This document shows, piece after piece, positions 47,317-52,710 of a DNA stretch of 64,000 nucleotides. The notes beneath the pieces were generated by a model, which saw only the letters and a list, made by a program, of their open reading frames with translations, made no database searches and was not told where the DNA came from. Source of the stretch: Heliorestis convoluta (GTDB lineage Bacteria > Bacillota > Desulfitobacteriia > Heliobacteriales > Heliobacteriaceae); assembly GCF_009649955.1 (NCBI RefSeq), contig NZ_CP045875.1, positions 2,572,501 through 2,636,500 of the forward strand, read 5' to 3'. The stretch's first letter is position 1. The number at the start of each line of letters is the position of its first letter. The position numbers and the translations under genes were made by a program.

Positions 47317-48576
47317 ATGAATAAAAAGGTAGAATTTGTTATCGAGCTAGGACGGCTTCTCTTGCAGTCAGGTGCGGAAACATACCGTATTGAAGAAAGT
47401 ATGGAGCGCTGCGGTACTGCCTTTGGTCTCAAGAAGCTTGAAGCTTATGCAACCACCTCTGTCGTCATGCTAACCTATTATGATGACAAGGATGACCAAA
47501 AGAGTCACTTTACAAGAATCCGCGAAAGAGATTTAGACCTAGAAAAAATAACTCTATTAAATGATTTATCGAGACGAGTCAGTTGCAAAAGAATTTCCCC
47601 TGAGGAGGCTTATAAGCAGCTTAAAAAGATAGAAGAAAGCTCTAGTTCTATATCTTTCGGTATAACTACCTTTATTGCAGGCATTAACGGCGCTTTGATT
47701 GCTCTGTTAAACAATAGTGGCCCCTTAGAGGCCATGATGGCTTTTATTGTTGTTGTTCTAACTTTTGTTATTATTCGAAAAATCAAAGTAGAGCAAGTGC
47801 TTTTTTTCAAAGAAATGTCTATCGGCATGATAGGTGCTACCCTTGCTGTTTTGCTCTACTACGTAATTCCTTTCAATATAGCACCTGTCATCATCGGTTT
47901 GATGCTAATTGCAATTCCTAGTATTCAAATGGTGAATGCTGTACGAGATTTATCGTCTGGTGATTTAACAAGCGGTGCTTTACGAGGTCTTGAAGCGGCT
48001 GGCTTGACAGTGGCTTTATTTAGCGGTGTCGGCATTGTCTTATCCTTGTCTAAAGTACCTTTCCAAGAGGGTTACTCTTCTTTAATGGCCGTCAATCCGG
48101 TGAAAGCTGCTATCTTAGCGATTATGATTGCACTGCTCTTTAATATCTTTTTGAAATCACCGATGAAGTCTCTTCCCTTCACAGCCCTTGCTTCCTTCTT
48201 GGGATTGGTCTCCTTTCTTTTCTTTGGTAAGATAGGCTTTAGCCTCACTGCTTCCGTCTTTTGTGGAGCTTTGGCTGTTGCTATTACTTGCGAATTTTCT
48301 GCTCGAATCTGTAAGATCCCAACGACTGCTTTTATCGTTGCCGGCTTTGTGCCTTTGTTACCGGGTTTATGGTTTTATAAATCCATGAGCTTATTGGTTG
48401 TTGGTGACCTTGCAGGCTACATTGAGCCGTTGACGCAAGGCACAGCAATCATTTTGGCCATCGGCTTCTCTGCAGCGATTGCAACGGTCTTTTTTAGAAA
48501 GTTCTTAAATAATTTGACTTTCTTTCGCAAAAGGCAATGTGATGTTCATGAAAATTCAAGTAAGTCTCTGTCTTGA
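47317..48576 (+). CDS. ThrE-family threonine/serine exporter (both halves fused)
   Basis: The N-terminal part is a ThrE domain (DUF1212): FVIELGRLLLQSGAETYRIEESMERCGTAFGL, then about five membrane segments. The C-terminal part is the ThrE_2 domain with the CKIPTTAFIVAGFVPLLPG motif and more membrane segments. Many Firmicutes encode the halves as two genes; a single chain is also known, as in Corynebacterium. The start is uncertain: ATG 47317 is preferred, TTG 47296 is open. A good terminator follows at 48581. Confidence 0.85.
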   Translation: MNKKVEFVIELGRLLLQSGAETYRIEESMERCGTAFGLKKLEAYATTSVVMLTYYDDKDDQKSHFTRIRERDLDLEKITLLNDLSRRVSCKRISPEEAYKQLKKIEESSSSISFGITTFIAGINGALIALLNNSGPLEAMMAFIVVVLTFVIIRKIKVEQVLFFKEMSIGMIGATLAVLLYYVIPFNIAPVIIGLMLIAIPSIQMVNAVRDLSSGDLTSGALRGLEAAGLTVALFSGVGIVLSLSKVPFQEGYSSLMAVNPVKAAILAIMIALLFNIFLKSPMKSLPFTALASFLGLVSFLFFGKIGFSLTASVFCGALAVAITCEFSARICKIPTTAFIVAGFVPLLPGLWFYKSMSLLVVGDLAGYIEPLTQGTAIILAIGFSAAIATVFFRKFLNNLTFFRKRQCDVHENSSKSLS

Positions 48577-48580
48577 AAGG

Positions 48581-48616
48581 AAAAAACGCTCAGATTTGAA
48601 TCTGTAGCGTTTTTTC
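48581..48616 (+). terminator. terminator after thrE
   Basis: AAAAAACGCT and AGCGTTTTTT pair with an inner CAGATTTGAATCTG hairpin. Confidence 0.9.
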
Positions 48617-48625
48617 TTATGCACC

Positions 48626-48652
48626 TTATTCACGTTATCCACATTATCCACA
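48626..48652 (+). repeat. three abutting DnaA-box 9-mers
   Basis: TTATTCACG, TTATCCACA and TTATCCACA follow one another without a gap (48626-48634, 48635-48643, 48644-48652). The last two equal the strict DnaA box and the first differs at one base from TTATNCACA. A fourth, TAATCCACA, lies in the other orientation at 48677-48669. No dnaA or dnaN is in the window, so this is not evidently oriC. The cluster lies between a terminator and the NlpC/LysM gene. Confidence 0.75.
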
Positions 48653-48831
48653 GATTCTCATGTCGCTTTGTGGATTAAATTGCTTTATTTCCAAGAATAA
48701 GGTTGTTGTTTTTTGTTGTGATGTTGTTCCTTAATATACCGCTAAAGCCATATATAAAATATTGATATAGTGCTTATAGGTTAATAGAATGGTTACAGAG
48801 GATGAATTAATACTTTCAAGGGGTGGCTATT

Positions 48832-49899
48832 TTGAAAAGAATCACGGCATTGTTACTAGCAACATTCTTAACCTTTTCTGTAACACTTCCGGCCCATGCT
48901 TTTTGGGCAAGGTACTCTACATCTGAAGCGATCGTGAAGTATGAAAAGTACATAGAGGGCTACCAAAATGATGAAGTCGTAAAAATCAAAGAGTACCGCA
49001 ACAATTATGCTTTTATGAAAGATAGCCTTGCAGATCAGCTAATTGAACGAGCCATTTGGTACATGGAACATGGCTATATGGTCTACGGTCGTCAGTTTAA
49101 AGGCTATAAAGACTACGGCATCGTAGATTGTTCCAATTTTGTTTCTCTTGTATATAGTGATTTTGGCTTTAACATCACGACGACAGCGAGAAACTACAAT
49201 TCGGTAGGCAAGAAAGTTGAAGGCGCCTATGCTACCAAGCAGGGAAACCATTGGGCGATCCAAGGAACTGAAAATCTTCTTCCCGGTGATATTTTCACCT
49301 ATTGGCAAAAAGATGCAAATGGGAATAAGTACATTAGCCATGTCGCTATCTACATGGGGATGATTGACGGAAAGCCGGCTGTTATCGGAACGGCCGACGC
49401 TGGAAATCCGACTGCTATCGGTATTGTGAATGATGTTCGTTACTGGTGGGGTAGTAACTTTTACACAGTTAGACGTGTTCTCCCCGAAGGCGCCTGGACA
49501 GCAGGAAAGACATTGCCGGGACATGAAGCGAAAGCCCCTGTAATTCCAAAACAATATCAATTGCCGCCACAAAAAAAGGTTGTCATGCCCGGTGAAGCGA
49601 ACAAAGACATCAAAACAACCTATACTGTTAAAGCTGGCGATAGCCTTTGGAAGATAGCTACTACCCACGGACTTACTGTTCAAGCGCTCATCCAGGTCAA
49701 TCATCTTACTTCAACAACCATCTATATAGGACAAACTTTAACCATCCCAACGCAAAATTCCTATACCGTTGTTGCTGGAGATAGTATGTGGAAAATTGCT
49801 CAACAGTTCGGTATTTCTTTGACGAGCCTTATTCAGGCAAACCCTACGATTAACCCGAACTACTTGTATATTGGACAAATTCTTACTTTACCAGCCTAA
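48832..49899 (+). CDS. secreted NlpC/P60-type hydrolase with two LysM domains
   Basis: A signal peptide (MKRITALLLATFLTFSVTLPAHA) is followed by a Cys-His hydrolase domain with DYGIVDCSNFVSLVY (nucleophile Cys) and ISHVAIYMG (His). Two LysM repeats (YTVKAGDSLWKIATTHGLTV; YTVVAGDSMWKIAQQFGIS) bind peptidoglycan at the C-terminus. This is a cell-wall or spore-cortex amidase/endopeptidase. TTG 48832 lies 5 nt after AAGGGGTGG and gives the neat signal peptide; GTG 48823 is less likely. The DnaA-box cluster lies about 180 bp upstream. Confidence 0.9.
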   Translation: MKRITALLLATFLTFSVTLPAHAFWARYSTSEAIVKYEKYIEGYQNDEVVKIKEYRNNYAFMKDSLADQLIERAIWYMEHGYMVYGRQFKGYKDYGIVDCSNFVSLVYSDFGFNITTTARNYNSVGKKVEGAYATKQGNHWAIQGTENLLPGDIFTYWQKDANGNKYISHVAIYMGMIDGKPAVIGTADAGNPTAIGIVNDVRYWWGSNFYTVRRVLPEGAWTAGKTLPGHEAKAPVIPKQYQLPPQKKVVMPGEANKDIKTTYTVKAGDSLWKIATTHGLTVQALIQVNHLTSTTIYIGQTLTIPTQNSYTVVAGDSMWKIAQQFGISLTSLIQANPTINPNYLYIGQILTLPA

Positions 49900-49980: not shown

Positions 49981-50023
49981 AAACCGTTGACCTACTTTAT
50001 AAAATAGGCCAACGGTTTTTTCT
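49981..50023 (+). terminator. terminator after the NlpC/LysM gene
   Basis: AAACCGTTG-CCTA pairs with TAGGCCAACGGTTT and is followed by T residues. A separate AAACTATAGTTT palindrome lies at about 49954-49968 before it. Confidence 0.88.
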
Positions 50024-51939: not shown

Positions 51940-52710
51940 CTATGGCCACTTGCTGATCTTTTTTCTATTTTTTTGGTGGACTTTCGTCGGGCGGACGAAA
52001 TTATGGATCGAAAAAGTTTGATATATTGTAACAGGACTTTTCGATGTAGCAGTTGCATCATTGTTTACCTTCTGCGTAGGACAGCAAAGTGGCGGTGGGC
52101 AGGGTTTTGGTGGTGGACAAGGCTTGGGCGGTGGACAAGGCTTGGGCGGTGGGCAAGGCTTGGGCGGTGGGCAGGGCTTGGGCGGTGGGCAGGGCTTGGG
52201 CGGTGGGCAGGGCTTGGGTGGTGGGCAAAAGTTTTTCAAATGAATGAACAACAGAGCATTTATGACGAAATTTCGTTTGTTTTTTGGACAGACTACAAGA
52301 TCTTCTACTACAAGAAAAGATCGAATGGGATCCTCATCATTCCAGTGTTCTGGAATGACGACATAATCAAAAAACGACAGCTTCTGTTCCAATGTACTAA
52401 CATTACCACAGGGACTTTCGTAAACGAGACGATAACAGATAAAGCCTTCAACAACAGCTTTTTTACCCGTTAACTTGGTTTTGTCTAATGCACTTCCTTT
52501 CGGCGTTTCGACAAATCGCATAGATACAATCTGTTTGGCTGTTACTGTTACTTCAAGGATCTTCACAATTTCTGCCTTATTAGCAGGCAATTCTACTTCT
52601 TGATTAACTTGACTTTGTTTAAAGACGCGAGGTTTTTCTGGAAAGTCTTTATCTAAAGACTTTGCTATTACACAGGTTTGGTCGGGACAGGACTGTGCCG
52701 TGTAAAACAC
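51940..52710 (-). CDS. SPOCS-like spore coat protein with CPPPKP repeats
   Basis: Residues 1-170 resemble the protein at 51264 (ILEVTVTAKQIVSMRF; GKKAVVEGFICYRLVYESP; LSFFDYVVIPEHWNDEDPI). Then comes a proline/cysteine segment with the hexapeptide CPPPKP seven times (about residues 161-203), CPPPLCCP, and a basic end. Such a Cys-Pro-Lys tract could be cross-linked by disulfide or Lys bonds in a spore layer. The GTG start follows GGGGGAG. The region 52091-52229 on the plus strand has a shadow frame only. Confidence 0.72.
   Translation of the reverse strand: MFYTAQSCPDQTCVIAKSLDKDFPEKPRVFKQSQVNQEVELPANKAEIVKILEVTVTAKQIVSMRFVETPKGSALDKTKLTGKKAVVEGFICYRLVYESPCGNVSTLEQKLSFFDYVVIPEHWNDEDPIRSFLVVEDLVVCPKNKRNFVINALLFIHLKNFCPPPKPCPPPKPCPPPKPCPPPKPCPPPKPCPPPKPCPPPKPCPPPLCCPTQKVNNDATATSKSPVTIYQTFSIHNFVRPTKVHQKNRKKISKWP
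52091..52229 (-). repeat. 18-bp tandem repeat encoding CPPPKP
   Basis: An 18-bp unit (on the plus strand GGCGGTGGGCAGGGCTTG) is repeated about 7.5 times with small changes at third positions. It encodes CPPPKP on the minus strand. The near-identical units suggest recent expansion. Confidence 0.9.

Follow-up and report, generated by a model that had tools for sequence, protein, structure and literature searches.

A DnaA-box array beside thrE in Heliorestis convoluta as a probable truncated copy of a prophage site upstream of terL

The closed chromosome of the photosynthetic bacterium Heliorestis convoluta HH (3,218,981 bp; PMC7143216) carries a run of abutting DnaA boxes in the intergenic region between a threonine/serine exporter gene and a cell wall gene. 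Clusters of this kind are commonly read as elements of host replication control, and the locus raises the question whether this array acts in the replication or gene regulation of the host or arrived there by another route. Here, we examine a window of 64,000 nucleotides around the array (contig NZ_CP045875.1, positions 2,572,501 to 2,636,500 of the forward strand; coordinates are those of the window unless marked as genome positions) and compare the array with the remainder of the chromosome, with related genomes and with prophages.

The box array and the repeated block that contains it

A reading of the sequence alone had pointed to three abutting DnaA boxes followed by an inverted variant box in intergenic DNA. 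These boxes are real and lie where that reading placed them; the gap before the inverted box is 16 bp and not 17 bp, and a fourth abutting box, TTATGCACC at 48617-48625, had been overlooked. The complete run of 36 bp (48617-48652) is TTATGCACC-TTATTCACG-TTATCCACA-TTATCCACA, that is, four abutting boxes arranged head to tail with a strict 9-bp period. Thus, 61 bp contain four tandem boxes and one inverted box, each a 9-mer within 1 mismatch of TTATNCACA, in the following setting:

47320-48576, + strand: thrE-like threonine/serine exporter gene, upstream neighbour of the array
48578-48618, strand not given: near-perfect hairpin with A/T tails (-20.8 kcal/mol, z -6.1), beginning 2 bp past the thrE stop codon
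48581-48725, + strand: repeated block of 145 bp that holds the boxes, composed of the likely terminator hairpin, the boxes and a frameshifted GGACT 3' end
48617-48625, + strand: DnaA box 0, TTATGCACC, 1 mismatch, abutting; a 9-bp unit without a counterpart in the prophage copies
48626-48634, + strand: DnaA box 1, TTATTCACG, 1 mismatch
48635-48643, + strand: DnaA box 2, TTATCCACA, strict
48644-48652, + strand: DnaA box 3, TTATCCACA, strict
48669-48677, - strand: inverted DnaA box, TAATCCACA, 16 bp past box 3, overlapping the stop codon of the gene relic
48675-48725, - strand: relic of the 3' end of a GGACT/AIG2 (gamma-glutamyl cyclotransferase) gene, reading ...NLILGNKAI-stop and frameshifted upstream
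48823-49899, + strand: gene for a protein with an NlpC/P60 domain and two LysM domains, downstream neighbour of the array

A lone TTATNCACA is not unusual in this DNA (5 in the window, with 2.3 expected). Markov models of the window predict about 1e-6 strict abutting pairs per window and 6e-5 per genome, in accord with the earlier statement that such pairs are very unlikely to arise by chance, and about 1e-10 occurrences of the three-box string per genome.

The block is repeated twice in the same chromosome, at genome positions 1479443-1479579 (copy 1, 81% identity) and 1522844-1522982 (copy 2, 78% identity), in both cases in prophage DNA and on the opposite strand. These three sites in H. convoluta are the only full-length occurrences among 61 genomes; in the 60 related genomes, the box core alone matches. 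The hairpin is likely a two-way transcription terminator and is retained in the prophage copies of the block. An RNA element at this place was considered and rejected given that the Rfam matches are sub-threshold (28 bits for SR1 against a gathering score of 45) and that the hairpin is explained as a terminator. At the other end of the block, the relic in the window ends in NLILGNKAI-stop, compared to TNLILGKKAN-stop in the intact prophage gene and NLILGKRTI-stop, and the GGACT stop codon and the inverted box overlap in all three copies. The block thus includes a piece of a phage cargo gene, which would not be expected of a host promoter element.

The copy in the window has two strict boxes as opposed to one in the prophage copies, plus one extra 9-bp unit. 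With an additional unit and stricter boxes, it thus lacks the decay that a neutral relic might show. A whole prophage at the array locus was rejected, given that the similarity to the prophage consists of the 145-bp block and a second match of 38 bp. The latter, at 49981-50018, is 92% identical to a spot in the prophage region and is probably a shared terminator-like inverted repeat.

Prophage context and the site upstream of terL

Copy 1 of the block is located between a gene with a GGACT domain and the large terminase gene terL, directly before the latter, in a prophage that also encodes terS, a Xer-like recombinase, an amidoligase, portal, capsid and tail proteins, DnaB and a primase. Copy 2 sits in a mosaic, internally deleted version of the same prophage segment. 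Both prophage copies adjoin terL, either intact or as a fragment, whereas the window copy has no terL next to it. In the cargo region from the recombinase to terL (about 1476.2-1479.5 kb in the genome), we observed genes for an ABC/GNAT-like protein, an amidoligase, a 92-aa protein and the GGACT protein; a comparable amidoligase-GGACT set was found in a Heliomicrobium-like prophage.

A site of similar design recurs in other heliobacterial prophages, for which we compared H. chlorum, H. mobile and a Heliomicrobium-like genome (species names inferred). Six prophage copies from three species in two other heliobacterial genera share an ungapped element about 180 bp before terL, and the region about 160-210 bp before terL contains an abutting TTATTCACN-ATAYCCACA pair followed, 15-17 bp on, by an inverted TTATYAACA-like box. 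A seventh copy, in the H. mobile-like genome, lies beside the remnant, 30 residues long, of a phage protein, with no terL nearby. Ungapped comparison of the seven copies (one pair of them nearly identical) yields the consensus TTCGACA-N33-AGTTATTCACNATAYCCACAGRAA-N~15-TGTTRATAA, with an identity of 0.92 in the core as opposed to about 0.32 outside. The number of copies that lack terL is uninformative with regard to preferential retention because the copies were found using the site itself as the query. The site is common rather than universal: 5 of the 12 further heliobacterial terL loci that were checked have it. The phage loci examined showed no second copy, and searching the literature for phages that combine DnaA boxes with terminase retrieved no report. 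The terL-upstream site is a tightly conserved cis site that apparently has not been described, and it offers a testable binding protein. Its function could be DnaA-responsive control of the packaging genes, a role as a packaging or recombination site, or another phage process.

The window array shows the abutting-plus-inverted layout of this prophage element, in other copies of which the inverted box is 15-17 bp away, but does not share its place about 180 bp before terL. TTCGACA at the fixed spacing is absent from the window array and from both H. convoluta prophage copies. The latter share position and layout with the other heliobacterial phage sites but little sequence beyond the boxes, so that common descent of the H. 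convoluta and other heliobacterial versions is presumed.

The TTCGACA motif stands at a fixed spacing in 7 of 7 aligned copies. In several copies, the Spo0A-box-like motifs TTCGACA and TGTCGAA stand on either side of the DnaA-like boxes, at about -250 to -130 from terL.

Host loci, chromosomal position and other clusters

The array lies at 2,621.1 kb of the genome and dnaA at 801.1-802.5 kb; dnaA/oriC are about 1.4 Mb away, in agreement with the earlier description of a region remote from dnaA. The genes dnaA, dnaN, recF, gyrB and rpmH are located at 796-803 kb together with dense boxes (names other than dnaA were assigned by reading open reading frames). Sampled GC skew stays mostly above zero until about 2.56 Mb and is mostly below zero from the window on. 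Because the sign changes near 2.57-2.64 Mb, we place the array in the terminus region, an estimate from samples. A scan for a terminus dif site, with a B. subtilis dif sequence as the query, gave no good match in the parts scanned. The proposal of an oriC or a secondary replication origin was rejected: the neighbours are thrE and the NlpC/LysM gene, there is no rep or dnaA nearby, and dnaA-dnaN is at 0.80 Mb.

The locus is not conserved. In the sister species, the orthologue of thrE (86% identity) is followed by different genes and has no box cluster, and in six relatives, the 1.5 kb upstream of the NlpC orthologue contain no box pair. Absence from sister species had been named in advance as evidence against the earlier reading, and absence is what is observed at the array locus beside thrE, which accordingly does not behave as a conserved host DnaA-box cluster of the B. 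subtilis type. Because the orthologues of both flanking genes lack boxes, there is no support for the suggestion that DnaA controls the NlpC/LysM gene, and a conserved NlpC promoter element was rejected for want of boxes upstream of the NlpC orthologues; the suggested link to sporulation likewise finds no support, the array being unconserved at orthologous NlpC and thrE loci. In another part of the window, on the minus strand at 51940-52710, we noticed a gene for a protein with about eight PPPKPCP-type repeats, close to another similar Cys-containing protein; it may be a spore-surface or wall protein.

A genome-wide count of clusters, as had been proposed, identified clusters besides oriC at 678, 844, 1479.5, 1522.9, 2299.8, 2387.8, 2891.9 and 3052.3 kb. 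Those at 2299.8 and 2891.9 kb retain synteny in the sister species, and the one at 3052.3 kb is upstream of a carbon-nitrogen hydrolase gene and recurs before that gene in several heliobacteria; these three are good candidates for host DnaA-box clusters. Across 61 genomes, there are 80 abutting TTATNCACATTATNCACA pairs and 0 of the reversed pattern, compared with a total of about 150 pairs over all twenty gaps of 1-20 bp. Of 30 abutting-pair loci inspected, 17 are within 1.5 kb of tsaD (gcp), and many Clostridia have such pairs next to this gene. Abutting boxes characterize the conserved host DnaA-box clusters of the class, at tsaD/gcp and at a nitrilase-family gene, as they do in B. subtilis; abutting TTATNCACA pairs provide a simple genome signature for such clusters in Clostridia, including the tsaD cluster that matches a strong B. 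subtilis site. Indeed, B. subtilis has eight regions of high affinity for DnaA, and one of them lies downstream of gcp (= tsaD) (PMC4447404).

Similarly to the B. subtilis clusters outside oriC (gcp/ydiF, yqeG/sda, ywlC, ywcI/vpr, yydA and trmE), the array consists of abutting or near boxes in intergenic DNA distant from oriC. Unlike them, it is not conserved, has the remnant of a prophage gene at its flank, is situated near the terminus and shows a strict head-to-tail periodicity of 9 bp. It also resembles E. coli datA and DARS as a non-coding DnaA-box locus outside oriC; however, datA spans about 1 kb, contains five boxes and requires IHF (PMC5295017), whereas the window array has no demonstrated IHF site or conserved chromosomal position. 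Phage and plasmid replicons, too, carry boxes on mobile DNA, and IMG/VR contains abutting pairs beside genes for DnaD-like loaders, DnaA-like organizers and ParB. Unlike such replicons, the heliobacterial site precedes terL instead of belonging to the replication module, and no iterons were seen next to it.

Origin and role of the array

In view of the boxes themselves, their repetition in prophage DNA, the remnant of a phage gene beside them, the conservation of the phage site and the lack of boxes at orthologous host loci, we consider it probable that the array is a truncated copy of the heliobacterial prophage terL-upstream cis site, a DnaA-binding relic that is at most a minor DnaA sink. 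Under this model, a prophage site of H. convoluta, made up of abutting DnaA boxes and an inverted box and adjoining the end of the GGACT cargo gene and a terminator, would have supplied a piece of 145 bp that landed between thrE and the NlpC/LysM gene, through decay of an old prophage or recombination with a prophage; we infer a direction of transfer from phage to chromosome. The hairpin of the block would now serve in the position of the thrE terminator. By analogy with B. subtilis, DnaA likely binds the array, conceivably in the cooperative manner in which such arrays are bound there, with, at this locus, at most a small sink effect and presumably no gene-specific role. Of the earlier proposal of a titration site, the DnaA boxes themselves stand, and a titration-type site is reasonable, given that the same abutting layout marks conserved clusters in the class, but any titration would be minor at most. 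On this account, a cluster of DnaA boxes of the type usually assigned to the host can arrive as a piece of a prophage.

Because the window copy has the extra unit and the stricter boxes, there is room for recruitment by the host, whereby the prophage-derived array would hold back initiation by titrating DnaA, as the six B. subtilis non-oriC clusters do. We regard this as unlikely, with the following points in its favour: the consensus is better than in the prophage copies, the same abutting pairs mark the conserved clusters near tsaD and the nitrilase-family gene, the DnaA protein of B. subtilis has a strong affinity for such arrays (PMC4447404), and deletion of all six non-oriC clusters in B. 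subtilis leads to early initiation that is partially relieved by one cluster restored at various places (PMC5295017). Against it are the lack of conservation in the sister species, the position near the terminus, the part of the chromosome with the lowest copy number, and the presence of at least 7 other non-oriC clusters in the genome. Distinctly unlikely is a broader scenario in which a prophage family has a strictly spaced DnaA-responsive site through which the replication state of the host, perhaps with Spo0A, controls packaging, and in which decay of such prophages seeds host DnaA-binding clusters, the window array among them having since gained a box.

The site could also be recognized by a phage protein, as a cos/pac-like packaging site of the terminase or a site of the Xer-like recombinase, with its likeness to DnaA boxes being incidental or secondary. 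The fixed place before terL, the rigid spacing that includes the non-DnaA-box motif TTCGACA, the tyrosine recombinase with variable cargo between terS and terL, and the copies without terL nearby all speak for this possibility. Nevertheless, we find it improbable because the H. convoluta versions are nearer to the strict DnaA consensus, being pure 9-bp tandem boxes without TTCGACA, and the phage loci examined lack a second copy; the spacing of 15-17 bp between the inverted arms is too wide for a Xer core site. Finally, the reading proposed originally, a DnaA-controlled promoter of the NlpC/LysM gene that couples replication to wall growth or sporulation, appears highly improbable. DnaA acts as a transcription factor in B. 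subtilis (PMC4447404), and there is a sigma-70-like promoter match at 48762-48790, downstream of the boxes and ahead of the gene; however, promoter-like matches occur at chance level, the boxes are at least 85 bp upstream of the -35-like hexamer, and the orthologues in six relatives have no boxes upstream.

Abutting pairs in IMG/VR have mixed neighbour families (replication, partition and terS), about half of them are inside open frames, and one group is iteron-replicon-like; for these reasons, we make no general phage-wide claim for abutting boxes. Other arrays were seen in heliobacteria. In an H. modesticaldum-sized genome, about eight head-to-tail DnaA-box-like 9-mers stand in tandem before a membrane-transporter-like gene (about 1451.83-1451.91 kb). 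At genome positions 1220736-1220753 of H. convoluta, an abutting ATATTCACA-TTATTCACA-ATATCCACA lies beside an IS-type ATPase gene and is another DnaA-like array in DNA that appears to be mobile.
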